A DNA stretch of 64,000 nt from Theionarchaea archaeon. GTDB lineage: Archaea > Methanobacteriota_B > Thermococci > Methanofastidiosales > SZ-28-30. Of this stretch, positions 1,350 to 60,739 are shown in pieces. The translations under genes were made by a program, and so were the position numbers. Under the pieces are notes generated by a model. That model was not told where the DNA came from. It ran no database searches and was given only the letters and a program-made list of their open reading frames with translations. Numbering within the stretch: the first letter of the stretch is position 1; every line of letters begins with the position of its first letter. The DNA lies in the NCBI GenBank assembly GCA_018992685.1, contig JACVGT010000001.1, positions 1 through 64,000 of the forward strand, in the 5' to 3' direction.

Positions 1350-2042
1350 ATGACTGGTCACATTGGAATTGTTGCATGCAGTGCGGAAGGAGCAGCTTTG
1401 TGCTACCGGACTATTTGCATGGAAGGTGCAGCAGTAATGGGAACCCATTCTCATCCTGAAATTACCATGCATACCTACCCCCTCCATGAGTACATGAAAC
1501 AGGTTGAGCATAACGACTGGGAAGGCGTAGGGGCTTTGATGATTTCTTCTGTCAAAAAACTGGCGCAGGTGGGTGCAGATTTTGCCATATGCCCTGATAA
1601 CACTATCCACCAAGCCCTCGACATTGTTATAAGAGATTCTCCCATACCCTGGATGCACATAGCAGAAGAAGTTGCCAAAGAGGCTCAGAGGAAATCTTTC
1701 ACCTGTTTAGGCATTTTAGGTACAAAATATCTTATGGAAGGACCTGTGTACAAAGTAGTAGAAAACATGGGAATGCAGTACATGATCCCTGAGAAAAAGG
1801 AGAGAACAGAAATAAATAACGTCATTTTCAAGGAATTAGTATATGGAGTGTTTCGTTCAGAGTCCCGTCACTACTTTAACAACGTAATCAAGACGTTGAA
1901 AGAGAAAGGATGCGATGCAGTCGTTCTGGGATGTACTGAAATACCGTTGCTCGTCATACCCGAGGAATCTCCATTACCCGTTCTGGATTCCACCAGGCTG
2001 CTGGCACGTGCTGCCCTGAAAAAAGCAGTCCAGGAATACTAA
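1350..2042 (+). CDS. aspartate/glutamate racemase family protein
   Basis: A 230-residue protein of the Asp/Glu/hydantoin racemase superfamily, cofactor-independent enzymes that invert an alpha-carbon using two cysteines. Both are visible: Cys81 in ICPDNTIH and Cys195 in VLGCTEIPL, each at the end of one of the two pseudo-symmetric alpha/beta lobes, and the length matches the family (~230). The start is ATG 1350, with a TATA box about 23 bases upstream and no ribosome site. The substrate (Asp, Glu or another amino acid) cannot be read from sequence. The gene stands alone and converges on the iscU-like gene five bases downstream. Confidence 0.85.
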   Translation: MTGHIGIVACSAEGAALCYRTICMEGAAVMGTHSHPEITMHTYPLHEYMKQVEHNDWEGVGALMISSVKKLAQVGADFAICPDNTIHQALDIVIRDSPIPWMHIAEEVAKEAQRKSFTCLGILGTKYLMEGPVYKVVENMGMQYMIPEKKERTEINNVIFKELVYGVFRSESRHYFNNVIKTLKEKGCDAVVLGCTEIPLLVIPEESPLPVLDSTRLLARAALKKAVQEY

Positions 2043-5219: not shown

Positions 5220-6032
5220 TCATAGGGACTTGCTTCTGATGGGCGTTCCCAGGTACTCTCGAATGTTGTAGATATGTTCTCTTTCATGTTCCAGGAATCG
5301 TCTCATCACTTTGCGGGCTGTCCATTTCTCGTGCGGGTGGGCTGTATATGCCTCCTCAGTGAGTATGATGTTCCCCAACTGTGGAATCATATCCTGTAGT
5401 GTCTTGCAGGATGCAGTTCTCACGGTCTGCAGCCTCTGAAACACGGGCAACGAGTCCACGGCCTCGACAGGTAGCCCTGCATGAATTTCATACAGGGTGT
5501 GTGCTTCAGGACCCATCCGGGATAGGTAGAATTCTTCAGCATTACATATGTGGTGCAGGATATCAGTGATGCTGCGCAGTTTTCCCTCTGGTTTCATGGT
5601 GAGCTGATCCTCCGGGAGGTCCTGGACAATAGTGAGGAGATCGTCCCTGTTGTAGCTCATGAGCGTGACGAAATACTGGAGGTCTTCTGGAGTCACAGGG
5701 GTCATATCATAGTGAAAGAGCGCCACCTCGCCTCCTGACTCCCCCAGCCCGGGGACATTGTGCACTTCTTCAGCAACTACAAGGGCCATCTCATTACAGA
5801 CGGGCACCTGTTCTTGATGGTTGCCCAGCCAGTCCATGTGGTAGTAAACCTCCCGTTCCAACTCTTCAAGAAGCTCCTGGTTCTCCCCTCCCCATGCAAT
5901 GGTTCCAGGGAACTCAATGCACCGTCCATACCACGTTCTGGTAGTCCCCTGTTCAATGGCGACCTCCACGTACATAGGCACTCTTTGGACAGGGCACATA
6001 TAAGGTTCACTCCAGCGCCTCCTGCGGTTCAT
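5220..6032 (-). CDS. HicB-like domain fused to DinB-like four-helix domain
   Basis: 270 residues. Residues ~19-95 (YVEVAIEQG..., RCIEFPGTIAWGGENQELLEELEREV) match the partial RNase H fold of HicB-like antitoxins and DUF1902-type proteins. Residues ~115-262 have the DinB/YfiT-like bundle, with possible metal ligands in ILHHICNAEEFYL and RRFLEHEREHIYNIREYL (His, His, Glu). DinB-fold proteins act as thiol-dependent transferases or lyases. The fusion is not a canonical toxin-antitoxin: no HicA partner is adjacent. ATG 6032 is used; ATG 5999, preceded by GGAGTGA, is a good alternative and would begin nearer the conserved domain. Confidence 0.7.
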   Translation of the reverse strand: MNRRRRWSEPYMCPVQRVPMYVEVAIEQGTTRTWYGRCIEFPGTIAWGGENQELLEELEREVYYHMDWLGNHQEQVPVCNEMALVVAEEVHNVPGLGESGGEVALFHYDMTPVTPEDLQYFVTLMSYNRDDLLTIVQDLPEDQLTMKPEGKLRSITDILHHICNAEEFYLSRMGPEAHTLYEIHAGLPVEAVDSLPVFQRLQTVRTASCKTLQDMIPQLGNIILTEEAYTAHPHEKWTARKVMRRFLEHEREHIYNIREYLGTPIRSKSL

Positions 6033-6070
6033 GAAGAGGGTCTGAGCTTACAACCTTTCTCTGCTGGAAA

Positions 6071-6081
6071 AACTTATATTC
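6071..6081. promoter_or_regulatory. shared TATA-like element between divergent genes
   Basis: AACTTATATTC reads as a TATA box on both strands and sits in the 97-base gap between the HicB-DinB gene (minus) and the 360-residue gene (plus). It would give leaders of about 20 nt leftward and about 30 nt rightward. A single bidirectional element is inferred from symmetry only. Confidence 0.4.
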
Positions 6082-6129
6082 CCTGACACCATAACAAGTG
6101 TGGAGCATGAGGTTCAGAAGGTGTGATGT

Positions 6130-7212
6130 GTGTCTTCAGAAGTTAAGGAAAGGGTGGTTTCATCTTTTTTCGGAACCAGGTATTTCACTTTGCTGGATCT
6201 AGAGATCAAGCAGCGTATCTCTGTGAATGGTCTTTGTTCCAGACAGGATTTGGGCAATAACCTTTGTCAAAAGGGATATGCAGAAGAAGATGTTGAAAAG
6301 GAACTCATAAGGCAAGGTCACTGCTCTACAATACGCTATCTTCCTGATAAGGATACTTACGTCAGCTTGGACATGGGAAAGGCCCTGTGGATGGATATTT
6401 GCCATCGTATCAATGAACAGGACCAACTGCTGGCAGGCAGCCTGTATTACAGAAAAGGATTCATCACTCTGGATGTATACCGCACAGATTTTCAGTCCCC
6501 CCAGCTGAGAAAGGCGGCCATATCTTCCGGACTGCGTCGAGCCCCTGTCATGAGGCGGACCGGCAGGTTCCAGCCAGGAGACGCTTCCCGCTGCTTAAAG
6601 GGTCTCTTGCACGTGTTGCCGGAAGCTGCCTGTGGGCCAGGAGACTATGCAGGAGTTCTCCAGAAGACAGGAGAAAAAATAGGTCGCAAACCACCAAAAA
6701 CACCGTGGGTGTGGCTGGCTGTTCACCCTGTTATAGAGGTAGATCTTCCTCCGTGGAGAAAGACTGTCTTGCGGGCGCTTTTCTCCCTAACCAATGGGCC
6801 TGCCACCTGGAGGGGAACTCCTGTCTCTCTCTACGAGCTGACTGGATATCTGGATGCCTCTCTTTCTGATATTGAGGAACCATTAACATATTTTCTGGGG
6901 ACGGGAATCATCCAGACTGCAGAGAATGATTATACTCCCACAGAGGAGGGCTATGCTTTACTGTCAGGGATTTTCAGGCCTCGTCACAGGGTCACGTTTG
7001 CAGTGACCCGCTGTGGACGACTTCTGTACCGGTTGGAGGTCAGTAGTCCCAGTTTTCTCTGTCCTGAAGTCCTGGATTTTCTTGTTGAAGCTGGTGGCTG
7101 CCCACATGAGAGCAGAGGTACACCCGTCGTCTTCTCGCCTGGCAGGAGATCCCACGTCATGGAGGTCATGGAAGGCCTCATGAAAACGATAGCGGCCATT
7201 GAGGATCGCTGA
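6130..7212 (+). CDS. uncharacterised protein with a winged-helix-like segment
   Basis: 360 residues from GTG 6130 (AAGGTGTGAT just upstream; the ATG at 6126 is out of frame). I do not recognise a named family. Residues ~225-285 (KTVLRALFSLTN..., SLYELTGYLDASLSDIEEPLTYFLGTGIIQT, YTPTEEGYALL) have the helix-turn-helix-wing pattern of a winged helix, and the N-terminal ~25-75 segment looks similar. A DNA- or RNA-binding role is plausible but unproven. The C-terminal ~70 residues are alpha/beta with two possible CxxE/H positions. It is divergent from the HicB-DinB gene. Confidence 0.55.
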   Translation: MSSEVKERVVSSFFGTRYFTLLDLEIKQRISVNGLCSRQDLGNNLCQKGYAEEDVEKELIRQGHCSTIRYLPDKDTYVSLDMGKALWMDICHRINEQDQLLAGSLYYRKGFITLDVYRTDFQSPQLRKAAISSGLRRAPVMRRTGRFQPGDASRCLKGLLHVLPEAACGPGDYAGVLQKTGEKIGRKPPKTPWVWLAVHPVIEVDLPPWRKTVLRALFSLTNGPATWRGTPVSLYELTGYLDASLSDIEEPLTYFLGTGIIQTAENDYTPTEEGYALLSGIFRPRHRVTFAVTRCGRLLYRLEVSSPSFLCPEVLDFLVEAGGCPHESRGTPVVFSPGRRSHVMEVMEGLMKTIAAIEDR

Positions 7213-7256
7213 TCATCCGCAGAATTTAAGAAGGAGAAAAGCACAACCAAGGTGCC

Positions 7257-7811
7257 ATGAAGAACGATCTCCCCCTGCACGTCAAAGGTGACCCTGATTA
7301 TGACCATCAGGATGCAACTGCGGCCGTAGCTCTGCTTTTGGCCTCCAACTCTGATCTTGAAATACTCCTTGTTGAACGCGTTAATAGTCCGGGAGATCCC
7401 TGGTCAGGACATATAGCTTTTCCCGGAGGGAAACGCAGCCCTTCCGATGCGACCTTGAAAGATACGGTAGTGAGAGAAGTAGCTGAGGAAGTTGGGATTG
7501 AGATACATGATCACGAGTTCCGTGGAGTTCTCCGCCCATTCATTTCACCACCCAAACCAGACATGAAGATCCTGCCCTTTGTCATACTCCTTGACGAAAG
7601 ACCTCAAGTTACCCTCAATAGGGAAGAACTGCAGTCCTTCATGTGGAGTTCTGTGAACCACCTCCATGAGTATGAGGGGACGACACGAACTTTTGTTGGA
7701 GAAGTCCCGGCCTTCACTATTGGTGAATATGTAGTCTGGGGGTTGACCTACAGGATTCTAACCCATTTTCTGACGGTACTGCACATGTCGGGACAGCAAC
7801 CCCGTGAATGA
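7257..7811 (+). CDS. Nudix hydrolase, CoA-diphosphatase (NudL)-like
   Basis: 184 residues. The Nudix box is visible as GGKRSPSD..., TVVREVAEEVGIEI at residues ~60-86 (G..., R-E-x2-E-E-x-G), preceded by HIAFPGGK, which with an adjacent charged segment is typical of the CoA pyrophosphatase/NudL branch (COG0494-like). It hydrolyses a nucleoside diphosphate linked to another moiety; CoA as substrate is inference from the FPGGKR context. AAGGTG precedes ATG 7257. Upstream AATTTAAGAAGG may be the TATA box. Confidence 0.85.
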   Translation: MKNDLPLHVKGDPDYDHQDATAAVALLLASNSDLEILLVERVNSPGDPWSGHIAFPGGKRSPSDATLKDTVVREVAEEVGIEIHDHEFRGVLRPFISPPKPDMKILPFVILLDERPQVTLNREELQSFMWSSVNHLHEYEGTTRTFVGEVPAFTIGEYVVWGLTYRILTHFLTVLHMSGQQPRE

Positions 7812-30827: not shown

Positions 30828-33800
30828 TTATTTAGCTTTCGGAACAGCATTTCCTCTCCTGTCCCAAATACTTTCCATGTGCCTATAATAAATATATGAG
30901 AACACTGTGTATCCAAGTCCTGCAATGGCACCTGCGAGGCCAAAATAAGCAAAAAGTATTTTCTTTCCTATAAAGGAAAGAATACCAAGAATACCCGACG
31001 CTCCTCCAACTAGCAGCCCTCTTAGGCTGCTTTTATTTTCATACTCCAGTTCCTTGTCGTGACAAAATTCTTGGAGAGCATCGATCGCGATCGCAAAGTC
31101 TTCCGGATCGATATCATGCTTATCTAGAAATTCCATGGCTGTCTTTACGCCCACCGGTCTTTCATCTTCCACAGGGACAAAATCATCAAATGAAATGAAA
31201 ACGTAGTCTGCAATGTTGCCATCATTATCATAGTAGATGATAGCAAGTCCTTCCTGGGTATTATAGAATCCATTTTCATCTAGTGTCCACAATTCAGCCA
31301 CTGCAACGCCTACGTTCCCAGACCGCTGAACTGGAGTTCTCAGAACCAGCAATTCGTCATCTCCATAGGGAAGTGTATGTGGAGTTTCTTGCTCTCCCTC
31401 TCCTTCACCTCCTCCTCCATCATCTTCTTTCTCTTCCTCTTCCTTTTCTTCTGAATTGTATGAACTTCCAGGATTACCTATGTCATGGAGAGTTCTATCC
31501 AATCCCATGGGGTCTACATATCTCACAGGATTATTCTGGCAATATGAATATCCATTTAAACTCTGAGGATTTGAAATCATGCCTTTGAATGGATCTCTGG
31601 TGATGAACCGCCCGATCTCAGGGTCATAATAACGCGCGCCGCAATAATATAATCCAGTAATATCTCTCTCCTGTCCAGAGAACAAGTAATCTTCAGAGCC
31701 TTCCTCAATGCAAGCCTCACCAAAGGGATGATAAGTTATTGCAGCAACAATGTTTTTATCATTATCAGTTATTTGCCTTGTAGAACCAATATGATCAGTA
31801 TGGTAGTAGAAGATATTTGATTCACCCTGAATAGTGGTTCTTTTTGCTATTCTTCCAGTTGGACCGTAAATATAGGAAGCAGAACCGTTAGAATTCTCTT
31901 CATACAACACATTTGCACCAAAATATATATATCTCGTGGTGACCCCATTTTCTGCCACTTGTAGTCGCCTTCCGATTCCATCATACTTGTATTCTCCCAG
32001 TGTTGCGCTGTTTTTTTCAACTCCAGTTAGTCTATTGGCATAATCATAAGTGTAAACCCAAGAATCAGTGCTTGTTGTTCTTTCCGTCATATTCCCATTG
32101 GAATTATAGGAAAAAGAAGTATCATTTGACAACGCAGTGACCTCATTGACAGAATTGACCGTATAAGTAATCCCATCTTTTCCTATTCTATTTCCTGTTT
32201 TATCATAGGAATACGTATGAGACCAGGAAGTACAGCTAGCAGATGTCAATCGATCAAGCCCATCATAACTATAGGATTCAGTGTTAGAATGCCATGAATC
32301 ACTGGTGTCTCTCCATGCGTTGGCGAGTTGGGTGATGTTGCTATTATTATCATACGTGTAATCAAGGTCCAAGAAGAAGGTTTCACCATTCTTTAAATCA
32401 ATAGTAGATATCCTATCCCTTGAATCATAAGAGAAAGTTGCCCGCAGATCATTCCCATAATCAACTTGTGTCAACAGACTTTCCACATTGTATTGCACAT
32501 TATCAAGGATGATTTCATCATTTGAGCCATCTACATACCGCTTGACATCAGTAATCCTGTTAAGATCGTCATATGAATATGTGATTTCCATGGTGTCTGG
32601 ATAGGTCAACTTTATGAGCCGACCAGCGATATCGTACTGGTATGACACAATATATGCCTCTATTGAGATATGTCTTGTCTCAGAAATTATTCTTTCCCAA
32701 GAATCATAGGTATTTTCGGTATAGTCTCCGGTGCTTATTGCATCATCATCCATTCTCACTACATTCGAATTCAAATCATAGGTCACAGTAACGGTAGAGG
32801 TGTCCTGATACTGTACCTGCAACAGCCTATTCAAGGAATCGTACGTAATAGTGGTTTCGTTATCTTCAGCATCAGTCAGAGATGTCACATTTCCAACATT
32901 ATTGTATTGATATTCTTCCCAAGTGGAATCAGGATAGGTGATTCTTGTTACTCCGAACAAAGAGGTATAGGTATAAGAGGTGGTGTGGCTTTCCGCATCT
33001 GTGAAAGACGTCAAATTACCAACTTCGTTGTATTGATAAGTCGTGGTTGCAAAGGTATCAGCAGTGTACTCTTCTTCCACTTTCACCAATTGACCAAGCC
33101 AATTGAACCAACCGATCTTATCATATCCTCGCCCATTTGTTAAGGTGACTTTGTTGTTGCTATCATCATATGACCAAGAGACTGAAGAAGAATCTGGGTA
33201 TGAGATCTGGAGTGCACGACCCAAAAAGTCGTAGGTGTATGTTTGCATTTGATTGAGTGGATTTGTCACCGTTGATATAAGATCATTGTATAACCAGGCA
33301 TATGATACTGTAGCATAAAGTGTACCTGATCCATAAGTTCCAGTGTACCATCTAGAACTCTGCAGCCTACCCAGTCTATCGTATTCTTGCACTATATGAT
33401 GCCTCAGTTGGTCTATAATGGTGATTTTTCTATTGGTATCATCAAAGATAGCTTCTATATAAGATCTCTGGGCTTGACCAGATAGTAATGGGAACTCTTT
33501 CTTGGTCACTCTACCCAAGAGATCATATGTAAATAAGTAATCATAGCCAGATCCAATGCTAACTCCTTCAGGCTGTTGTATGGAAGTAATCCATCCCCTG
33601 TTGGAGTCATAGGTGGCTTTGCTGGTGATAGTATCCTGACCCACAGTAGCTGAGATTTCTGTCAAGTATGCATAAGAATAGGTGGCAGAATAGGTTAAAG
33701 AGAGGTTATTGGATTCAGCATCGGTAATGGACGTGACATTTCCATAGGTGTCATACTGCATACTCGTGGTGTAGGTATCTGGTGAATTATCCACAGGGAC

Positions 33801-36509
33801 ATACAGTGCCCAGGAGAACTTGGTGTTCTGTGCAGAGGATTCAGTGAAATACAAGGTATTTTCACCATTTGTCAATCCAGTAACAGCGACCTGAGCTGTG
33901 GTATTCTTCAGATTGCTGGAAATAAGTTTCCAGTTGGATTCATTTACATCATACTGGACCTGTGCAGGATACGCTTTCCAATACGCAGTTACTGAAAAGC
34001 TATGTGACTGCTGGTTACAAGAAGGATTTGTCGAACAGCCTTGATACCCCAGAGTGTTGGGGTAGTGGGTAAAAGGTCCAATGTAGGCCCAGCCCTGGTA
34101 TATAGTAACGTCGGGGAAAACACCGCATGAATAGGTATAGTATGTCTTGTAATTACTGGACTGCCAGCTACAGAGTGTCCAGGTGGCATCATGGCATCCA
34201 GTTCCGTAATTTGGAGTGTAGGAATGTACTTCTGAGTAGGTGGGATCAGAGGCTAGCCCGGTGATCTGTAATATGGCATTTCCAGCTACCGAATAGCCTG
34301 TTAAATCCACGGGGAAAGAAGTGCTGCTTGTATTCTCATTAAAGGTCCCAGAAAAGGTTTGATATGAGGTGTAATTTCCAAATAAAGAGTCAGATTCTGT
34401 GGGATGAGCCTCCCCGTCATAGGTCACATATACTTCTTTCACATAGGTACTGTCCTGCTTTTCTGCCATGCCGATCAAGGCTGTATGTACAGAGGAGGGG
34501 ACAGTGCTATTGGAGAATTTGTTGGTGAAGGTCTGTTTTATGGCACCTGTATTATCCATGAAGAACCCCGAACCATTAGTGTTAGAATACGAGAAAAACG
34601 TCTCATGGCCTTCTGCATTTTTAGTATAGGTGATGTTCCCCCAGTTATCATAAGAAAAGTAGGTAGTATAAGAAAGTGTCGATCCATCATTATATACATT
34701 TGATTGCGTAACCGCCTTTTGGGAATTATAAGTATATGTGTATTTTCTGATGGGTGTTGCTGATTCATCCTTGGTTATCTGTTCTGTGATTAATCCACTG
34801 CTGTTTATAGTGAAGTGATTAGAACCTTTCGTAGTATCTGATTCATTCTTTACGGTGGCGACAGAAGATGTGATTGCCTCTAATGTCCCTGTGTAGGAGA
34901 AAACCATGTGGCGCACCTGACTCGTCTCATATACCCTCTGGTCAGTGACATAGTACTTATAGTAATCATTATCGGAGAACCTATCATACGAGTATGTTGT
35001 ATACCCCGTGGTGGCATACGCTATCTGGGATAGCAACCAGTAGTTATATCCACTGTTGTAGTAGTAACTGGTTCTCCTATCCAGGAAATCATCCATCCAC
35101 TGCAGACACCCGTTTCCATCATATGAGTATTCTAATTCGGCACTGTTATACGTGATTTTCCATAATCGACCACTGGAGTAACTGAGGCTGAGTGTCCGTC
35201 CAATGGTGTCCGTTATAGTGGTTAAAATGCCACTCTGATAGGTAAAATCAATACTGTTCCCATCAATATCTCGGATTTGAGTCAACTTCCCGGAGGTATC
35301 AAACTCATAAACTGTACCGCTGGCCATGGTCAACGTATATGTGTTATTCCCATTCTTCACTAGGGTGAAATGAGAGCCGACATGATTTTCAAAGGTATTA
35401 CTCACCCAAGAGATCTTGTATGCTGTCCCCCCCCATAGGTGCAGGTATTTCGTCCCAACATATGGGAAGTCGAGCGACCAGCCCTTACCCAGATCTACAG
35501 GAGGAGCTTCATAATCATAGGGGCTACTTCCATAGAATACTGCAGGGGTCTGGTATACCCTACTGATGTTTACGTTTAGACTTCGTCCTGGAATCACTAA
35601 ATCCGTTTGGGTAATAGTTAGTAACCCATTGGCAGGGTTGACAAACTCCTTCAGATTCCTGAAATACTGTCCATACGGTGTCAACCCTGAAGACTCCCAA
35701 GCATCTTCAAAAGTCTGCATGGAAGGGTCAATCACTACAGGGTATTGAGCAGACCTAAGCCATTCTTGTCCTGATGCATCAATCACTTTGTGCAGTTCAT
35801 ATCCTGTTTCCGTCTCAACTAGATCATAATGGACATCAGTACAAACTGAGCCTCTATCGTCCTTCATAAACGGAGCAAGTATTTCAACTATAGGGTTCCC
35901 ATCTGAAGAGAACAGCAACGATCCAGTTTCAGTATACTCTGGTGTCATTTTATCCCAGGAAATCTCATATATGAACCATTCACTCTTTATGAACTCAGAA
36001 AGTACCAGTCTCTCTGTTAATAACGATGTGTCTACCTCATATTCCATATCTACAGAACTAAATACACCAGAGACAGAAAGTGTATTGTCCTCAGAATCAC
36101 TCTCCTCAGCCTGCACTTCCCCCGAATCACTCTCCACCAATTCCAGTTCAATCCAAGTTTCTCCAATCTCCATTCTCATGGTTTGTCCATCGAAGAATGC
36201 TGTATAATATGGAGAATTTGCCATATACTCATAATCCTGGTTGCTACTGGAGTGAACCTGCAATGGCTCATGACTGGGAGATTCTGTATATCCATAATTC
36301 TCTTCAATACCATAAACTCCATCCTGCAGCGTAACATGTCGTAACCTGTCAAGTGAACTTCCGAACACTATTTCTTCGGAAGGTATATCTGTCATTCCAG
36401 CCAAGAGTTGGACATTAAATAGGAGACCCATAAAAAGAATGGCACCAATATAAGTAACTTTTGAGATTCTGAGAACCTCATTAACTGTACCTACATCTCT
36501 CATCTTCAT
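30828..36509 (-). CDS. secreted RHS/YD-repeat protein
   Basis: 1,893 residues from ATG 36509, preceded by GGAGGTTTGGAAT (TTG 36524 is upstream in frame). An N-terminal hydrophobic segment (VTYIGAILFMGLLFNVQLLAG, ~18-38) looks like a signal. Residues ~280-480 carry an RHS-entry region (FVNPANGLLTITQTDL, DLGKGWSLDF). YD repeats (YDxxGxxxxxTDAxxxxxxYxYD) run to about residue 1560. The RHS-associated core (DHIGSTRQITD..., GLYYCGARYYDPEIGRFITRDP..., NPVRYVDPMGL) lies at ~1565-1665. An acidic EEKEEEEKEDD/GGGGEGEGE linker follows, then a ~170-residue variable tail ending in two hydrophobic helices. RHS shells encapsulate C-terminal effectors; this tail resembles no toxin I know. Base composition is more AT-rich than the ribosomal genes, consistent with transfer. 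Confidence 0.9.
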   Translation of the reverse strand: MKMRDVGTVNEVLRISKVTYIGAILFMGLLFNVQLLAGMTDIPSEEIVFGSSLDRLRHVTLQDGVYGIEENYGYTESPSHEPLQVHSSSNQDYEYMANSPYYTAFFDGQTMRMEIGETWIELELVESDSGEVQAEESDSEDNTLSVSGVFSSVDMEYEVDTSLLTERLVLSEFIKSEWFIYEISWDKMTPEYTETGSLLFSSDGNPIVEILAPFMKDDRGSVCTDVHYDLVETETGYELHKVIDASGQEWLRSAQYPVVIDPSMQTFEDAWESSGLTPYGQYFRNLKEFVNPANGLLTITQTDLVIPGRSLNVNISRVYQTPAVFYGSSPYDYEAPPVDLGKGWSLDFPYVGTKYLHLWGGTAYKISWVSNTFENHVGSHFTLVKNGNNTYTLTMASGTVYEFDTSGKLTQIRDIDGNSIDFTYQSGILTTITDTIGRTLSLSYSSGRLWKITYNSAELEYSYDGNGCLQWMDDFLDRRTSYYYNSGYNYWLLSQIAYATTGYTTYSYDRFSDNDYYKYYVTDQRVYETSQVRHMVFSYTGTLEAITSSVATVKNESDTTKGSNHFTINSSGLITEQITKDESATPIRKYTYTYNSQKAVTQSNVYNDGSTLSYTTYFSYDNWGNITYTKNAEGHETFFSYSNTNGSGFFMDNTGAIKQTFTNKFSNSTVPSSVHTALIGMAEKQDSTYVKEVYVTYDGEAHPTESDSLFGNYTSYQTFSGTFNENTSSTSFPVDLTGYSVAGNAILQITGLASDPTYSEVHSYTPNYGTGCHDATWTLCSWQSSNYKTYYTYSCGVFPDVTIYQGWAYIGPFTHYPNTLGYQGCSTNPSCNQQSHSFSVTAYWKAYPAQVQYDVNESNWKLISSNLKNTTAQVAVTGLTNGENTLYFTESSAQNTKFSWALYVPVDNSPDTYTTSMQYDTYGNVTSITDAESNNLSLTYSATYSYAYLTEISATVGQDTITSKATYDSNRGWITSIQQPEGVSIGSGYDYLFTYDLLGRVTKKEFPLLSGQAQRSYIEAIFDDTNRKITIIDQLRHHIVQEYDRLGRLQSSRWYTGTYGSGTLYATVSYAWLYNDLISTVTNPLNQMQTYTYDFLGRALQISYPDSSSVSWSYDDSNNKVTLTNGRGYDKIGWFNWLGQLVKVEEEYTADTFATTTYQYNEVGNLTSFTDAESHTTSYTYTSLFGVTRITYPDSTWEEYQYNNVGNVTSLTDAEDNETTITYDSLNRLLQVQYQDTSTVTVTYDLNSNVVRMDDDAISTGDYTENTYDSWERIISETRHISIEAYIVSYQYDIAGRLIKLTYPDTMEITYSYDDLNRITDVKRYVDGSNDEIILDNVQYNVESLLTQVDYGNDLRATFSYDSRDRISTIDLKNGETFFLDLDYTYDNNSNITQLANAWRDTSDSWHSNTESYSYDGLDRLTSASCTSWSHTYSYDKTGNRIGKDGITYTVNSVNEVTALSNDTSFSYNSNGNMTERTTSTDSWVYTYDYANRLTGVEKNSATLGEYKYDGIGRRLQVAENGVTTRYIYFGANVLYEENSNGSASYIYGPTGRIAKRTTIQGESNIFYYHTDHIGSTRQITDNDKNIVAAITYHPFGEACIEEGSEDYLFSGQERDITGLYYCGARYYDPEIGRFITRDPFKGMISNPQSLNGYSYCQNNPVRYVDPMGLDRTLHDIGNPGSSYNSEEKEEEEKEDDGGGGEGEGEQETPHTLPYGDDELLVLRTPVQRSGNVGVAVAELWTLDENGFYNTQEGLAIIYYDNDGNIADYVFISFDDFVPVEDERPVGVKTAMEFLDKHDIDPEDFAIAIDALQEFCHDKELEYENKSSLRGLLVGGASGILGILSFIGKKILFAYFGLAGAIAGLGYTVFSYIYYRHMESIWDRRGNAVPKAK

Positions 36510-36614
36510 ATTCCAAACCTCCAAAAGCTTTGCATTGACTTCGCCACCTGCATGTGCATATTCTTCAATCTGCAGGCTTTGCTGTCAATATAGCTAAGCC
36601 GTAGACATTTAGCC

Positions 36615-53476: not shown

Positions 53477-53855
53477 CTATCCCATTTTCTGCGATAACCG
53501 CAAGATTTCTATCCATGTATGAACAAACTGATGAAAAGGGTAACTCAAAGGTATGTTTCCCTTAGCAGTGTAGTTCCACAGAGTTTTTCTCGTTTTGCTG
53601 TGTATACAGGTCATTGTTCTTAAGTTCGCTACAAAGATGAACCCGTCCACTAGCATCGGATCTCCTAAATAGTATCCCACGTCCCTTTTCCACCTCACGT
53701 GACGTATTCCAGCCTTCCCTTCAGGTGAGATTGCAGGTTCACTGTAGGGAAAATAAGGGGAAAAGTCCTTGTCAAGGTAATATTCCGGTGCCATGGGCGA
53801 ATAACACCCCCAGCGAGCTATCTTACCACCATCTTGTATACCATTGTTTCTCTAG
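53477..53855 (-). pseudogene. fragment of PQQ-like beta-propeller protein
   Basis: A 105-residue frame (ATG 53794 to 53477), open 60 bases further upstream without a start codon (GIQDGGKIARWGCYSP). GDPMLVDGFIFVANLRTMTCIHSKTRKTLWNYTAKG matches one blade of a PQQ/WD-type propeller. The expected other blades are absent and the end loses propeller character, so a remnant is the best explanation. Confidence 0.45.
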
Positions 53856-54370
53856 TGATCATCTAATTCTATTAGAATCTTAAAAAGGGCAGAAGGTATC
53901 TTTCCGTTGAATTGTACGAATTTCTTCCCACAGAAATCAATGTCCCAGGGAATAAAACAGTGAAACCCGGAATGTGAATAAGGCATAATCTTCCCTTCTG
54001 TTGAGGTAATGGTGACTTCAATATGAGGATAATAGTCGAATCTGATGAAGTCATTATAGGATGGTTCGGGAACTTCAACTTCATAGAAATCAGTAAAATT
54101 CGCCATCAGATTATCAATGAGTTCTGGATCAATATTCTTACCCGTATCGGAGAAATATCCTGCATTTTTGCGTGTTATTGTATAGTACTTATCATCCTTC
54201 CCCGGAAAGTACACAACTCCATAATATATTTCAATCTTCTCAACAGTAGCAAGCTCTTCTCTAATTTTTGTCACAGGGAAGAATGATCCTTGTTGAATCA
54301 GAGAGAGCACCACAATAACTGCAATACATGCCCTGAGAGCATTCGTACAACAAGTAAAATACCCTGGCAT
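53852..54370 (-). CDS. hypothetical exported or membrane-anchored protein
   Basis: 172 residues from ATG 54370. The frame continues 288 bases upstream, but that part is antisense to the peptide gene at 54555 and has no protein character, so it is rejected. An N-terminal hydrophobic stretch (ALRACIAVIVVLSLIQQ, ~10-27) precedes a soluble domain (YYGVVYFPGKDDKYYTITRKNAGYFSDTGKNIDPELIDNLMANF..., PHIEVTITSTEG). No family recognised and no clear ribosome site. It is divergent from RiPP system 2. Confidence 0.5.
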   Translation of the reverse strand: MPGYFTCCTNALRACIAVIVVLSLIQQGSFFPVTKIREELATVEKIEIYYGVVYFPGKDDKYYTITRKNAGYFSDTGKNIDPELIDNLMANFTDFYEVEVPEPSYNDFIRFDYYPHIEVTITSTEGKIMPYSHSGFHCFIPWDIDFCGKKFVQFNGKIPSALFKILIELDDH

Positions 54371-54490
54371 AAAAGGACTTTCTGAAGAACTTAAGGATAT
54401 GTGAGTCTGTGACAGATTCTGTAAACCGTATCTCCCCTTACTTCTACTACTAATCTCGCTACCTATTACATCACAATGTGGACAGAAAGA

Positions 54491-54498
54491 TTTATAAG
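54491..54498 (+). promoter_or_regulatory. TATA box of RiPP system 2
   Basis: TTTATAAG predicts a start near 54520 and a ~35-nt leader to the precursor ATG. Confidence 0.55.
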
Positions 54499-54554
54499 CA
54501 CGCGAAAAGAGAGGTAAGTATTTCTGAATAGGACATAGACAAAGAGGTGATAAA

Positions 54555-54665
54555 ATGATGAAAACGTGGATAGATCCGTTAGCCCAAAAGATGGAAGGAG
54601 CAGAAATTGATCCATTGGGAGTCTCAAAGTGTTCATGCGGTTGTGACCCCACGCTCATTCCATAG
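54555..54665 (+). CDS. candidate RiPP precursor peptide (system 2), Cys-rich core
   Basis: 36 residues, with an own promoter and AAAGAGGTGATAAA directly before ATG 54555 (a second ATG follows in frame). The N-terminal part (MMKTWIDPLAQKMEGAEID) is leader-like, with an acidic amphipathic segment. The C-terminal part (PLGVSKCSCGCDPTLIP) holds three cysteines in a CxCxC pattern, a natural site for thioether, thioamide or heterocycle formation. It is followed at 26 bases by a T-run and then, on the same strand, by an alpha/alpha-toroid protein, two radical SAM enzymes and a PqqD-like protein. Start of the mature peptide is unknown. Confidence 0.75.
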   Translation: MMKTWIDPLAQKMEGAEIDPLGVSKCSCGCDPTLIP

Positions 54666-54690
54666 GAATATTTCTCGCAGAACTATTTCA

Positions 54691-54706
54691 TTTTTTTTAT
54701 TTTTTT
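54691..54706 (+). terminator. T-run between precursor and biosynthetic genes
   Basis: TTTTTTTTATTTTTTT, about 26 bases after the precursor stop, an archaeal-type terminator. Read-through would lower expression of the enzymes relative to the peptide, as in system 1. Confidence 0.5.
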
Positions 54707-54722
54707 GTGGGAAGGGAATACT

Positions 54723-55694
54723 ATGAATGGAAGTAACAAGAAAATAGACGTTCGGGAGATAGTCATTGCTCTGAGAAGAGCAAAGATTTTTATTGCGAGG
54801 ATAATCTATACTCACAGGAATCTCCTAGAGTATTACCCTGCACACATTTCAGCGCTATTTTGTTATGCAAGACTATTGGACATCGTAGTACCGCGCGATA
54901 TAGACGAAAGCTTCGAAAAATTCATGCTTGAGAATCTCAACCGTAACTATGAGAGAATGTCTTTCTTGGACATTTTTTGGGGAATTTCCTACTTCAGTTT
55001 AAAAGGATATGGGTCCGGGAAATTGAGTGAATTCATTGAGCAGATTTTTTCTTTTCAAAATGAGAATGGTGGAATCGGATCTCACAGAGGAGATATAGGC
55101 AGAATTCCTCACACAGGAAGATTCTTGACCGCACTTCTTTCTACAGAATATGAGAGTGAAGATCTTTTCAAGTCCCATGAACAAAAAATCTTGAAGGCAT
55201 GTGATTTTCTAATTACTGAATGGAGCAAGGACGTTTCATCAGGAAATGCCCTGTCTCACAAGGGTGCAGCGGTATTGAGTGGTCTCTCCAAGTGTTCAGA
55301 AGTGAATCTGGGAATACAGGGGTTAGACCAACAAATAGTGGATACGATAAGAGTGCTTCTGGATCTGCAGATTCAAAACGGTGCCTGGACATTTCTCACG
55401 AAACAGACTGATGACAGGATTTCACTGGAATTGTCAGCCCCTAACATAACTGCTATGGTAGTGCGCTCGCTAAGCGAGGCATACCTTAAGGAAAAAGGTA
55501 ATGAAGCGCCCAAAATGAGTGAAGAACTCTCAAGGGATGTACTCCTGGCAATTGAGAGAGGGAGCAAGTACCTTTGTGAAACTCAAAGCGAATTTGGGTT
55601 TTGGCCTGCTAGTAACAGTGGAGATCTATCCGTTTTTGCCGGGGAGAGCGCATTGGCGTTGAAACCGGCTTTGGAGGTTCTTGAAGATGGGTAG
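54723..55694 (+). CDS. alpha/alpha-toroid protein (prenyltransferase/squalene cyclase-like repeats)
   Basis: 323 residues from ATG 54723, chosen over TTG 54705 since GGGAAGGGAATACT precedes it. Three repeats show the QW-like Gly/Trp pattern: FSFQNENGGIGSHRGD (~110-125), LLDLQIQNGAWTF (~220-232) and YLCETQSEFGFWPASNSGD (~285-303), each after a pair of helices. The fold is shared by terpene cyclases, protein prenyltransferase beta subunits and LanC-like cyclases. I see neither a DCTAE cyclase motif nor LanC zinc ligands. The role in the cluster (cyclase, scaffold or peptide binding) is unknown. It overlaps the next gene by eight bases. Confidence 0.75.
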   Translation: MNGSNKKIDVREIVIALRRAKIFIARIIYTHRNLLEYYPAHISALFCYARLLDIVVPRDIDESFEKFMLENLNRNYERMSFLDIFWGISYFSLKGYGSGKLSEFIEQIFSFQNENGGIGSHRGDIGRIPHTGRFLTALLSTEYESEDLFKSHEQKILKACDFLITEWSKDVSSGNALSHKGAAVLSGLSKCSEVNLGIQGLDQQIVDTIRVLLDLQIQNGAWTFLTKQTDDRISLELSAPNITAMVVRSLSEAYLKEKGNEAPKMSEELSRDVLLAIERGSKYLCETQSEFGFWPASNSGDLSVFAGESALALKPALEVLEDG

Positions 55695-56895
55695 TAGAGT
55701 ATCTGAATATGAAAAGGCCATATCCAGTATCGTGGAAAGGAAATATGAGGATAAGAGAGTTTTTTCTGTGCAGTGGCATATAACTGATCATTGCAACCTG
55801 GCATGCAAGCACTGCTATTCCAGCAACAATTCGATAAGGGATCTACCATTGAATGTACTCAAGGCTATCTTTGATAAGTATCTGAAAGCCATACTCAAAT
55901 GGGGTGTGGAAGGGTATCTTAGCCTGACCGGAGGAGAGGCAATTCTGCGGAGTGATTTCTTTGAACTTCTTGACTTCATACATGCAAGATGGGAAGAACA
56001 CCCAGTTTTTGTTGTGAGCTTGATGTCAAATGGGACTCTTATCGATGAAGAACGTGTCTCTCATCTGAAAGAGTACTTGCCCATGTTGTCGCATGTTCAA
56101 ATCAGTCTGGATGGTGTTAACGAAGAGACACACGACTTCTTACGAGGAGAAGGGTCCTTTTCGAGAAGCAAGAAGGGCTTTTCCTTGTTGCGTGAGGGTG
56201 GGTTCACCACTGCATTGCACTATGTGGTGCACAAAGGAAATTACAGAGATGCTTTCAACATACTGGAGCTGGGAGATGAACTCAAAGTAATCAGGGTCAC
56301 CTTATCAAGGCTGGTCCCCGAGGGCGGAGGGAAAACTTTGGAAATGCTAGCACCTTCCGAACTAAGGGATTTATGGGACTATCTGGGCAGCAGATGTTTG
56401 GATTACTACCCAAAGGGAGTCTTCTTGGCAAGGGGCAGGTGTGATCTGTGGCACCTCCCAGACATAGCTTCTGCCTTATACTCCCTGAAGTTGAACTCAC
56501 AGGGAAATGCATTTCCTGCACTATACAGGGTTGGTCAGAGATGTCCTGTAGGGCTCAATGGACTCGCCGTGGATACGGACGGGACCGTCTATCCTTGCAG
56601 AAGACTGCCCATTTCAGTAGGGAACATCGTCCAGGATACATTTTTCAAAATATGGTATAGCTCCAGACTTCTATGGAAATTCAGGCACAAGGAAGAATAC
56701 ATGAAAGGAAAGTGCCGTGATTGCCCGTTTCTCACTGATACACAGTTGAGAACCTTGTGTGCTGGAGGCAGTCCCTGCATTTCCTATGGTAATTGTGGAG
56801 ATTGCTTTGAGCCCGATCCGCAATGCTGGTTTGATCCGTACTCGGAGGAACAGAGAGAGGAGGTGGAAAAATGGAGAAAAAGGATCCTAGAATGA
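55687..56895 (+). CDS. radical SAM/SPASM peptide-modifying enzyme
   Basis: 402 residues from ATG 55687 (GGAGGTTCTTGAAG upstream; TTG 55681 also in frame). CxxxCxxC is Cys36/40/43 (HCNLACKHCYS), the GGE motif is LTGGEAILRSDF (~79-90), and the SPASM-type tail has GQRCPVGLNGLAVDTDGTVYPCRRLPISVGNI, GKCRDCPFL and CAGGSPCISYGNCGDCFEPDPQCWFD. The number of C-terminal Cys suggests two auxiliary clusters. Such enzymes form thioether or C-C crosslinks on precursor peptides; the CxCxC core here offers obvious targets. The following PqqD-like gene overlaps its end, supporting a two-part RRE-dependent enzyme. Confidence 0.88.
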   Translation: MGSRVSEYEKAISSIVERKYEDKRVFSVQWHITDHCNLACKHCYSSNNSIRDLPLNVLKAIFDKYLKAILKWGVEGYLSLTGGEAILRSDFFELLDFIHARWEEHPVFVVSLMSNGTLIDEERVSHLKEYLPMLSHVQISLDGVNEETHDFLRGEGSFSRSKKGFSLLREGGFTTALHYVVHKGNYRDAFNILELGDELKVIRVTLSRLVPEGGGKTLEMLAPSELRDLWDYLGSRCLDYYPKGVFLARGRCDLWHLPDIASALYSLKLNSQGNAFPALYRVGQRCPVGLNGLAVDTDGTVYPCRRLPISVGNIVQDTFFKIWYSSRLLWKFRHKEEYMKGKCRDCPFLTDTQLRTLCAGGSPCISYGNCGDCFEPDPQCWFDPYSEEQREEVEKWRKRILE

Positions 56896-57140
56896 GAGAG
56901 AACTTGTTCGTTATAAACGAAGAAGGAAGATACGTAGTCTTCGATCCAGAAGAGGGAGATCAGTGGAAACTGAACGAAACAGGAGCCCTGATTGTGGATT
57001 GCCTGATGCAAGGAGCCTCAATGGAAGACATAAAAAGTAAAATAATGGAAGAATATGATATAGATTCGGAAAAAGCGGAGGAATCGTTGAACAAATATAT
57101 AGAAGTGCTCAAGAAAGAGGGAATTATTCTGGAGGATTGA
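56871..57140 (+). CDS. PqqD-like RiPP recognition element protein
   Basis: 89 residues. The winged-helix pattern NLFVINEEGRYVVFDPEEGDQWKLNETGALIVDCLMQGASMEDIKSKIMEEYDIDSEKAEESLNKYIEVLKKEGIIL matches PqqD-type RREs, which bind precursor leaders and hand them to radical SAM partners. AGAGAGGAGGTGGAAAA precedes ATG 56871, which lies within the end of the preceding radical SAM gene. Either radical SAM enzyme in the cluster could be the partner. Confidence 0.87.
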   Translation: MEKKDPRMRENLFVINEEGRYVVFDPEEGDQWKLNETGALIVDCLMQGASMEDIKSKIMEEYDIDSEKAEESLNKYIEVLKKEGIILED

Positions 57141-57175
57141 ATGAAGGTGTTTGAAAGGAGGGATGGTACATTAGA

Positions 57176-58810
57176 TTGGCTAGAATTGAGGTAGATTCTC
57201 CATGTAATAACCGCTGTATTCACTGTCTCACCGGAAGGAGAGAGCAGAAAGACGTCATAGGATGTGAAGAACAGATCAAGAGGGCTCACAATGAAAAAAA
57301 AGATGGGATCGTCATATTGGGGGGAGAACCAACCCTGAGAGGGGATATTCTTGATATCGTCTCCTGTGCCAGAGAGATCGGGTTCAAGAGAATAAACCTC
57401 ATAACGAATGCGAGGACCCTTTCAAACAGGGAGTTTGCCGGTAACCTGATACGCGTAGGAATTTCTGATTTTGTGGTAAAACTGTGGGGAGCCAGAAGGG
57501 AGGTTCATGACAAGATAACTGGAGCGAAAGGGAGTTTTGAACAAACAGTGAGCGGAATAAAGAATATTGTGTCCCTCAAGGGTGAAGGAGTTATTATGGG
57601 ATATTCAGGAATACTCATGGAGAATTACGTGTCGTTAGCTGAGCTGATACAGCTTTTTGCCGATCTCCGTGTAAGATGGGTACGGTTGAGGCTGCCCCCA
57701 GTGGAAGATGCACTCATCCCTCTGACCCAGGAAACCATGAAGTACATCTACAGTGCCATAGAGACTGCCAACAGACTGAATGTTGGTCTGGAGATAGAGA
57801 ACATTCCCTTCTGTTTCATGAGAGGCTATGAAGATTATGTATACATTTCCACAACGCGCAAAGACAGACTGGAAGATTGTGATTTCTTGGACTTTGTCAA
57901 GGTCGAACAACACGATGGCAAAACAAAAGTGCCCGAGTGCAACCAATGCAAGTACTCTTTTCTTTGTGGCGGAGTTTGGAACAAGTATCTGGAAAAAGAC
58001 TCTGTATGTGAAGTCAATCCAGTTGAAAACATGGGAGAATCGAGAATGCTCCAGAGAATTGATGACCTGATAGGTAAAGAAGGGCTGTTTCATCCACTGG
58101 TGGAGAGCGGAGAAGTGCCCGAAGGACTTCGAGCAGATGCTATTGTCCACTTCAGCGGCGGCATTGATTCTACAGTAGCAGCAGGAATATATGCCAGCAG
58201 AAACAAGGAGAGAAAAGTGGTGCTCGTTACATATTGTCATCAAGGTCTGCTGAATGTAAATAGCTCGAGAGTCAACGGCTCATATCTCATGGAGAAATAC
58301 CCCAATATAGTGGCACACCTCCACATCTCTCTCCTGCAGGAGCTGTATGTTCCCCTTTGCTTTGGCAGGGATTACAAAGAACACGCCATGAGGCTGTCGG
58401 GAAATTACGGATGCATAGCCTGCAAGCTCCTGATGTATGCTTACTCTGTATTTCTGCAAACTGCTTACTTCAAGGGAGACACCATTATTTCCGGAAATAA
58501 CCTAACCATAATTCCAGACAGAGGGGGTCACCCGATACCACAGATGCCGGAGGTAGTGACCCTCATCAAGGACTTTGTAGGTGAGTATGGCATGGCATGT
58601 GTCAATCCTGTCTACGCTGTGTCGAGCAAGCAAAGGATTGTACTCTTGGCAGAAACGATGGGCCTTCCGGCCACCAGCATGTTTCAATCCAAGTGCATCC
58701 TGGGGGTTCCAATTCTCTGTAAGGATATGGAACCCGTGGTTCAATTCTTAAGAGAGAGAATTCTGCCGATTCTTCGAAATGTATTGACAGCCAACATGAA
58801 GAGGCTGTAG
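57176..58810 (+). CDS. radical SAM/SPASM enzyme fused to PP-loop ATP pyrophosphatase
   Basis: 544 residues. Radical SAM part: CxxxCxxC at Cys10/14/17 (SPCNNRCIHC), ILGGEPTLRGDI (~47-58) and a SPASM-like Cys set (CDFLDF, CNQCKYSFLCGGVWNKY, C278). After residue ~320 a PP-loop domain begins: HFSGGIDSTVAAGIYA (SGGxDS, 327-332), VVLVTYCHQ, then YGCIACKLLMYAYSVF with CxxC 413-416, IISGNNL, and C-terminal Cys in QSKCILGVPILC. PP-loop enzymes adenylate a carbonyl or oxo group, often for sulfur insertion. Start is uncertain: TTG 57176 (AAAGGAGGGATGG upstream); a frame from ATG 57141 would read MKVFERRDGTLDW, which fits if one base were added. Confidence 0.85.
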   Translation: MARIEVDSPCNNRCIHCLTGRREQKDVIGCEEQIKRAHNEKKDGIVILGGEPTLRGDILDIVSCAREIGFKRINLITNARTLSNREFAGNLIRVGISDFVVKLWGARREVHDKITGAKGSFEQTVSGIKNIVSLKGEGVIMGYSGILMENYVSLAELIQLFADLRVRWVRLRLPPVEDALIPLTQETMKYIYSAIETANRLNVGLEIENIPFCFMRGYEDYVYISTTRKDRLEDCDFLDFVKVEQHDGKTKVPECNQCKYSFLCGGVWNKYLEKDSVCEVNPVENMGESRMLQRIDDLIGKEGLFHPLVESGEVPEGLRADAIVHFSGGIDSTVAAGIYASRNKERKVVLVTYCHQGLLNVNSSRVNGSYLMEKYPNIVAHLHISLLQELYVPLCFGRDYKEHAMRLSGNYGCIACKLLMYAYSVFLQTAYFKGDTIISGNNLTIIPDRGGHPIPQMPEVVTLIKDFVGEYGMACVNPVYAVSSKQRIVLLAETMGLPATSMFQSKCILGVPILCKDMEPVVQFLRERILPILRNVLTANMKRL

Positions 58811-58868
58811 AACCAGTCATAGTGGGAGAAGAGGCTGTTGCTGATAGTGGTAGTTCCTCAGGAGCGAG

Positions 58869-60695
58869 TCAGATTCTCTGATCCTGAGGAGCAAGTTCCC
58901 TTCTCCATGCTTCTACTATTGAAATAATAGTGTGCATATCCTTGTCATAGTACACCAGTCCGGCTTCTCTTAGGGTGTTGAGTGTTTCAAGAAGATCTTC
59001 TTCTTTCTTGTGCTTGAATTTCTGTTTTACTTGGCGCAAGGTCTTAATTGAATCGCAAAAAACCAGAAGGTCTGTCTCGTCGCGGTCCAGCACATATGTA
59101 CAGGTGCTCGATCCCTTTTCCTCAATGAAAGAACCATCCTCATACTCAATCCAGATATAAGAGCAATTCTCTTGTACATAAGATTTCATCATCATTTCAA
59201 AGTCATCCCACAGGGCATGATGAGGTCTTTCCCTGTGAAAACCGGAGAACTCAAATCTATCAGAGACTGGCACGAGACCAGTGGGATGGATTTCAGCCCA
59301 GAATTGGTCGAAATTCCAATCTTTTCTCTCTTCTTCTGACATCTCATCATAAAATACAGATCCTTTGTATAGGACAAAAGGAATCAGATTGAGAGCATGA
59401 GTCCTGAGGAGAAATCGCAAGAACCTGAGATTGACGCAGCTTTCCAAGATATCCTCTTCCGTCTCTGTGGGAATTCCCTGCAATATGTTGAGATAGTCAA
59501 TTCTCAAATTATACTGACTGCCAAGTTTCAATGCCTGGATATTGTGAGCAAACCTGTGGCGTTTCTCCATTTTTCTTAGGAGTGAATCCGTGAGCGCCTC
59601 AAACCCAATCTGTAATGAGGTGAATGATGCAAAGCGAATGTACCTCCCTGTCTCGGAATCCAAGAAGATGGGAGATATTTCGCCGAAAAAATGGTACGGC
59701 TCTCTTCGACTTGCCGAAAGCTTTGATAAGGCTTTCAATAGGATTCTGAACCTTTTCTTATTCCCGGGAAATTCGTTATCCACAAAGATGAATGAATCAA
59801 TGTGGTGTCTATTTGATTGAAACCGTATTTCCTCAATGACATTCTCAGGCGATCGCGCATGATATGAATACTCTTCATTCAGGACACAGAATTTGCATTT
59901 GTTCCACGGACAAGACCTGCTTCCCCAGATAGGGATGAGAATTCGCATTTCGCGGGGTAAATATGTCCTCAGTGTACTAAAGTAGTCAGAATGATCTGCG
60001 AAAGGATACAAATCCAAATCAAGAAATTCACTGTTTTTCTGCGTAGAATGGGCAGTTGTGTCCTTCCGGTAGATGAGTTGTGGCACATCTCTGATGTCCG
60101 TGTTTTCTTCCAACGCCCTGGTCAGATAAAGGAGTGGAAATTCGCCTTCCCCCCAGATGGCAAAATCAGCCAGAGGGAAGAGGTTCATGAAAGAGTATCC
60201 CTGTGACTCGCTGCGGATTCCTCCAACAAGTATCTTGATCTCAGGATTCATTTCTTTCAGCCGGTGAATCAAATAGTAACTCATCATCCACTGTCGGGTC
60301 TTCAGGGTGAATCCAGCAAGAGTCGCCTTGTGGAGATTATTATCTCCAATATATTGGTCAATCTTGTCTTCAATTGAGGTTACGAGCTCTTCGATTTTCC
60401 CTTTGGGAAAAAAAGATGAGAAAAATACATCAAGTGGCGTTTTGTTGAAATTCCAATTATCTTTTATCAGCAAATGCTTGCATATGAGTACGGTGAAAAC
60501 ATAGAAAGGAGGTAATTTCGAGAGCATTGGAAGATCTTTCATTATTCTTCCATATTTCATTATTTCTTGGAACAAGATTAGGTTCCAGTACACATTCTGC
60601 ACGTTGATTCCTTTTGCTTCAAGAAATCCTTTTAGGTATCCTAGTGCGGGATTCGAAATGTCCCATCTATATGGAGGCATGCAATTCAAAATCAC
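58869..60695 (-). CDS. B12-binding radical SAM enzyme, RiPP-maturase type
   Basis: 608 residues from GTG 60695 (TTAGGAGGGTTCCAC upstream). An N-terminal Rossmann-like B12 region (~1-190) leads to LVGGIRSESQGYSFMNLFPLADFAIWGEGEFPLLYL, then the radical SAM core with cysteines at 262/267/270 in GSRSCPWNKCKFCVLN. This CxxxxCxxC spacing differs from both canonical CxxxCxxC and the longer loop of typical RiPP B12 C-methyltransferases, but surrounding sequence (SYHARSPENVIEEI, GEISPIF, IGFEALTDSLLRKMEK) matches that family. The C-terminal ~100 residues look like a winged helix. It converges on the fusion gene, so it likely belongs to the cluster. Confidence 0.82.
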   Translation of the reverse strand: MILNCMPPYRWDISNPALGYLKGFLEAKGINVQNVYWNLILFQEIMKYGRIMKDLPMLSKLPPFYVFTVLICKHLLIKDNWNFNKTPLDVFFSSFFPKGKIEELVTSIEDKIDQYIGDNNLHKATLAGFTLKTRQWMMSYYLIHRLKEMNPEIKILVGGIRSESQGYSFMNLFPLADFAIWGEGEFPLLYLTRALEENTDIRDVPQLIYRKDTTAHSTQKNSEFLDLDLYPFADHSDYFSTLRTYLPREMRILIPIWGSRSCPWNKCKFCVLNEEYSYHARSPENVIEEIRFQSNRHHIDSFIFVDNEFPGNKKRFRILLKALSKLSASRREPYHFFGEISPIFLDSETGRYIRFASFTSLQIGFEALTDSLLRKMEKRHRFAHNIQALKLGSQYNLRIDYLNILQGIPTETEEDILESCVNLRFLRFLLRTHALNLIPFVLYKGSVFYDEMSEEERKDWNFDQFWAEIHPTGLVPVSDRFEFSGFHRERPHHALWDDFEMMMKSYVQENCSYIWIEYEDGSFIEEKGSSTCTYVLDRDETDLLVFCDSIKTLRQVKQKFKHKKEEDLLETLNTLREAGLVYYDKDMHTIISIVEAWRRELAPQDQRI

Positions 60696-60730
60696 GTGGA
60701 ACCCTCCTAAGTAGCTGGAGTTCCCTTTCT

Positions 60731-60739
60731 CTTATAAAG
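60731..60739 (-). promoter_or_regulatory. TATA box of B12 radical SAM gene
   Basis: CTTTATAAG on the minus strand about 40 bases before GTG 60695; it also reads as a TATA box rightward. Confidence 0.45.

Follow-up and report, generated by a model that had tools for sequence, protein, structure and literature searches.

We consider it likely that a gene cluster of an uncultured Theionarchaea archaeon is a RiPP biosynthetic locus working by the scheme proposed below, and its gene set very probably makes a chemically altered Cys-rich peptide. The genes of this cluster, their domains and motifs and the genomic context in which they recur are observed directly. The 64-kb stretch of DNA that was analysed (the window) is part of contig C7 of the 3.03-Mb genome, and all six components listed for the cluster in the first-pass annotation are present in it. 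The plus-strand run of genes spans positions 54555-58810 and comprises, in this order, a 36-aa Cys-rich peptide, a T-rich tract, a toroid-like protein, a SPASM radical SAM enzyme, a PqqD-type protein and a radical SAM/PP-loop fusion; a B12-binding radical SAM enzyme is encoded on the minus strand.

Cluster layout and candidate precursor peptide

The cluster had been described as a run of overlapping genes, which holds for the toroid and SPASM genes (8 nt of overlap) and for the SPASM and PqqD genes (25 nt), but not for the PqqD and fusion genes, which are separated by a gap of about 30-35 nt. The B12 radical SAM gene also lies outside the overlapping run, since it is on the minus strand and converges with the plus-strand genes, from which it is separated by a 58-bp gap, and it has a TATA-like element of its own. 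The cluster contains no recognisable protease or exporter, and the genomes searched yielded paralogous loci but no orthologue of the locus as a whole.

The candidate RiPP precursor (54555..54665, plus strand; MMKTWIDPLAQKMEGAEIDPLGVSKCSCGCDPTLIP) is a 36-aa peptide with a leader that begins MMKTWIDPLA and a Cys tail, SKCSCGCDPTLIP, carrying a CxCxC motif. It is preceded by a well-spaced Shine-Dalgarno (SD) site, GAGGTGAT, and by a BRE/TATA-like promoter element, AAAGATTTATAA (54486..54497, plus strand), whose pattern AAAGATWTWWAW occurs five times in the 64-kb window against 0.21 expected. Other candidate precursor genes in the genus are preceded by comparable AT-rich elements. Downstream of the peptide stop codon there is a T-rich tract (about 54684..54704, plus strand; ends approximate), which is possibly an archaeal terminator that would set the precursor transcript apart, and T-tracts also follow several other candidate precursors in the genus. 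The arrangement is the one typical of RiPP pathways, a short precursor gene adjoining modifying enzymes, here a 36-aa Cys-rich ORF with SD site and TATA-like box.

To place the motifs of the peptide in context, we used 1405 SD-preceded ORFs of 25-70 aa from the searched loci as a comparison set. CxCxC occurs in six of these 1405 ORFs, three of which adjoin RiPP-type genes, and the motif W..P.[LVIFA] is found within the first 20 residues in seven of the 1405, odds that are indicative only, since the literature on this motif was consulted once the peptide was already known. The leader of the window peptide carries W-I-D-P-L-A, a WxxPxA match, and lasso-type RREs have been described to bind the leader motif [Y/W]xxPx[L/V/I/F/A] (PMC13381572). 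Assignment of the window peptide to the NKKxW family of candidate precursors, described below, was rejected, because the NKKxW profile fails to find it and only K-T-W is held in common.

Several other ORFs of the window were noted. A minus-strand ORF (53852-54658) overlaps the peptide gene in its longest form only; if the internal ATG at 54370 were its start, the protein would have a hydrophobic, signal-like N-terminus and the peptide region would be left free. A short minus-strand ORF (53477-53794) shows weak similarity to PQQ repeats and is possibly the remnant of a beta-propeller gene, and farther upstream a 1898-aa ORF (30828-36524, minus strand) is flanked by blocks of ribosomal-protein genes.

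Predicted modifying enzymes

The radical SAM/SPASM enzyme (55687..56895, plus strand) matches Pfam Radical_SAM (1.6e-22) and SPASM (2e-11). Its top NCBIfam model is that of the ACGX-system radical SAM enzyme (TIGR04340, 7e-44), with 150.4 bits against a curated cut-off of 400, and its second-line matches are the heme-pathway AhbD/NirJ models (1e-34 to 1e-38). The adjoining gene (56871..57140, plus strand) encodes a discrete PqqD-type RRE of 89 aa (Pfam PqqD, 6e-16), a leader-binding domain of the kind expected in RiPP pathways. The top NCBIfam model for this protein is the lasso-type PqqD chaperone, at 52.4 bits (cut-off 70), against 19.2 bits for the PqqD model of PQQ synthesis, and it is alone among ten PqqD proteins of the genus in showing a clear preference for the lasso-type model.

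The last gene of the plus-strand run (57176..58810) encodes a fusion of an HxsC-like radical SAM domain (Radical_SAM 1.4e-15, HxsC4 5.9e-33) to a ThiI-like PP-loop domain; its start codon may be TTG at 57176 or ATT at 57170, the latter with better SD spacing. The C-terminal part alone reaches 20.7 bits with Pfam ThiI, marginally above the gathering cut-off of 20.5, and the score within the whole protein is 18.0 bits, below that cut-off. The PP-loop part also shows a weak match to QueC and contains the motifs SGGIDS, GCIACK and KCILG. Single-sequence AlphaFold prediction on this half gave no usable model (pLDDT 34).

No full-length relative of the fusion was found in about 1,385 genomes, a partial sampling covered by single-sequence searches, and the sister genome lacks it. 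Of these genomes, 115 belong to the phylum of the window genome, and the others are samples of 398, 344, 227 and 301 genomes from the phyla of a Bathyarchaeota, an ANME-1, a Thorarchaeota and an Anaerolineae genome, respectively; at E<=1e-20 or 1e-22 all of these searches returned either nothing or matches confined to the radical SAM half. Viral contigs contained no relative of the fusion, and on plasmids the matches were confined to HxsC-type radical SAM halves. Searched for by itself, the PP-loop half was not found in 28 further genomes, and it was present in none of the HxsC-like relatives that were fetched. A pattern scan of contigs, for which rows 2-5 of the alignment were artificial and made to steer the patterns to conserved motifs, does not probe the PP-loop half fairly, since both patterns lay in the radical SAM half and the result covers only the matches listed. 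A role in defence was considered and rejected, as there was only generic, viperin-like radical SAM similarity. Contigs of Nanohaloarchaea/DPANN (loci L059, L060 and L061) carry comparable arrays of radical SAM genes, HxsC-like ones among them, which by eye suggest an Hxs-like system in these archaea with tiny genomes.

The B12-binding radical SAM enzyme (58869..60695, minus strand) resembles RiPP C-methyltransferases. It aligns with TIGR03975 over the whole length (1.6e-51), with 175.6 bits against the curated cut-off of 281.85. The family has five copies in the genome of the window and nine across two Theionarchaea genomes, and the radical SAM Cys motif is retained in four aligned copies.

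The toroid-like protein (54723..55694, plus strand; 323 aa) contains Q..NGG/NGAW repeats, and the first-pass annotation of it as a toroid is weak: it resembles, at the 1e-4 level (3e-4), proteins of relatives that Pfam assigns to squalene-hopene-cyclase families, but has no direct Pfam match, Prenyltrans and SQHop_cyclase included, even at E 10. No full-length relative was found in its phylum. The single-sequence AlphaFold model (pLDDT 54.6) is too poor to judge the fold, and with this poor model Foldseek returned no significant match; the similarity of the protein to AprG in the PDB (E 0.25) is not significant either.

From these components we infer the modification of the peptide itself, the order of the steps, the types of bond, the product and its role. 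The 36-aa peptide would be produced from its own short transcript, and the PqqD-type RRE would bind its WIDPLA leader and deliver the peptide to the SPASM enzyme. This radical SAM enzyme would oxidatively link residues in the Cys tail, most likely through a C-C bond or a Cys thioether. With ATP, the fusion may activate a carbonyl and make a further change, possibly the insertion of sulfur or nitrogen; C-methylation of one residue would fall to the B12 enzyme, and the toroid protein could act in substrate holding or cyclisation. Sulfur transfer by the PP-loop part is a fair guess, given its cysteines and its likeness to ThiI. Action of PP-loop-superfamily enzymes on RiPPs has precedents in the lasso cyclases and in PesC, which leads to a C-terminal nitrile (PMC13060819). 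We tentatively put forward, as a possibility somewhat short of probable, that the fusion is a new type of RiPP enzyme in which the activation of a carbonyl by ATP, for the insertion of sulfur or nitrogen, is coupled to radical chemistry on the same peptide; the product would belong to an undescribed class, and this archaeal genus would make RiPPs of about a dozen kinds.

Paralogous loci and alternative explanations

Two Theionarchaea genomes (G000 and G020) contain 14 and 15 PqqD matches, respectively, and no other genome of the phylum contains more than four, so that the genus is unusually rich in RREs for an archaeal one; each Theionarchaea genome appears to hold a dozen or more RRE/radical SAM peptide loci. 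Paralogues of the SPASM enzyme (37-41% identity) and of the B12 radical SAM enzyme (36-58% identity) are found in the two genomes, repeatedly next to PqqD genes and to short peptides that are rich in Cys and preceded by good SD sites. Locus L036 has the closest B12 paralogue and a close SPASM paralogue. There, one polypeptide (5874-7652, plus strand) consists of PqqD domain(s) and, after them, a SPASM radical SAM domain, combining functions that the window encodes in two genes, and a short Cys-rich peptide with a strong SD (1463-1654, plus strand), bearing CACGC, lies upstream. Beside PqqD/radical SAM genes at L041 (5212-5352, plus strand), L049 (944-1093, minus strand) and L053 (1442-1585, plus strand) there are more short Cys-rich ORFs, likewise with strong SD sites but with differing leaders.

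Another set of candidate precursors forms a family with a common NKKxW leader and CGCGG/CC-rich tails, for which no NCBIfam model matched where tested. Its members lie beside paralogous enzymes at L044 (6233-6355, plus strand) and L045 (10037-10177, plus strand), twice at L049 (3108-3272 and 9242-9409, plus strand), a locus with three copies of a short Cys-rich peptide, and beside radical-SAM-type ORFs at L147 (1501-1659, minus strand) and L153 (1501-1653, plus strand). The L147 and L153 peptides are orthologous, one in each genome, and the differences between their genes are distributed over codon positions as 11/4/20, mostly at the third.

A RiPP function had been said to be refuted if homologous loci carried the enzymes but never a short peptide. 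Peptides are present at L036, L041, L044, L045 and L049, but simple ORF criteria found no such short Cys-rich peptide at L034, L174/L175 and L177. The peptides at paralogous loci favour RiPP function, at the level of paralogues and not of orthologues, and the original RiPP interpretation stands to the extent that the enzymes recur in two genomes beside PqqD and Cys-rich peptides, with some loci where no peptide was found.

Another reading is that the substrate of the enzymes is a small molecule, a cofactor or a larger protein and that the 36-aa ORF plays no part. The SPASM paralogues at L034 and L048 lie near ORFs that by eye are nitroreductase-like, no peptide being found there, and the AhbD/NirJ matches of the SPASM enzyme point in the same direction. 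Its top match, however, is a RiPP model, a PqqD-type RRE and a RiPP-type B12 enzyme are present in the cluster, and peptides accompany several paralogous loci, and we regard such an alternative substrate as improbable. Still less credit is due to the suggestion that the cluster is a degenerate or chance assembly, a non-working recombined remnant of several RiPP loci: the fusion is missing from the sister genome and from every genome sampled, and there is a PQQ-repeat-like fragment upstream, but the frames are all intact and tightly packed, SD sites are present and the radical SAM Cys motifs are kept.

A less distant alternative, although in our judgement an unlikely one, is that the RiPP pathway comprises the plus-strand genes only, from the peptide to the fusion, and that the B12 radical SAM enzyme serves another peptide or substrate. 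The opposite orientation, the promoter-like element and the convergent gap of its gene, together with the five copies of its family in the genome, are all compatible with this, and because the gene is not co-directional with the others, its membership in the pathway rests on paralogue context. At both L041 and L044, however, a B12 paralogue follows PqqD and radical SAM genes, downstream and in the same orientation, and each locus also has a Cys-rich peptide; at L036 a B12 paralogue is found near the PqqD-SPASM fusion. We therefore retain the B12 enzyme in the proposed RiPP pathway.

Comparison with known RiPP systems

To our knowledge, archaeal RiPPs are hardly charted beyond a few classes, and a search at the level of titles and abstracts found no publication on RiPPs of Theionarchaea. 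The nearest systems in composition are ACGX (TIGR04340) and GeoRSP (TIGR04303), which, like the window, combine a SPASM radical SAM enzyme, a separate PqqD-type RRE and a short precursor bearing Cys residues or repeats; compared with these, the window adds the toroid-like protein, the radical SAM/PP-loop fusion and the B12 enzyme, and its SPASM enzyme scores under the ACGX cut-off. Lasso clusters have a discrete RRE (B1) and a [Y/W]xxP leader, and the window RRE is nearest to the lasso-type model, with a score under its cut-off, and is accompanied by a W-x-x-P-x-A leader, but radical SAM enzymes take the place of the cyclase/protease pair: neither an asparagine-synthetase-like cyclase nor a transglutaminase-like B2 leader protease gave a Pfam or NCBIfam match in the cluster genes and the two upstream ORFs. 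The cluster genes likewise gave no match to YcaO or TfuA, the enzymes of thioamidated RiPPs.

With regard to the individual enzymes, the B12 protein aligns with the TIGR03975 C-methyltransferases over their whole length and forms a Theionarchaea subgroup below the cut-off, and HxsC4, from the His-Xaa-Ser (Hxs) systems, is the top-scoring model for the radical SAM half of the fusion. We know of no Hxs protein with a PP-loop half. The lasso cyclases and PesC, a nitrile synthetase, set a precedent for activating a carbonyl of a ribosomal peptide with ATP; they are asparagine-synthetase-like, whereas the PP-loop domain of the cluster resembles ThiI/QueC and shares its polypeptide with a radical SAM domain.

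The locus was originally proposed as a new pathway, and its gene combination is indeed new, although it still falls within the radical SAM RiPPs; the novelty is in this combination and in the fusion, and no new principle is involved. What the window locus contributes is an enzyme fusion unseen in the sampled genomes and a candidate leader/RRE pair, and, should the fusion act as suggested, a single short Cys-rich peptide would be edited by both ATP-driven and radical chemistry.
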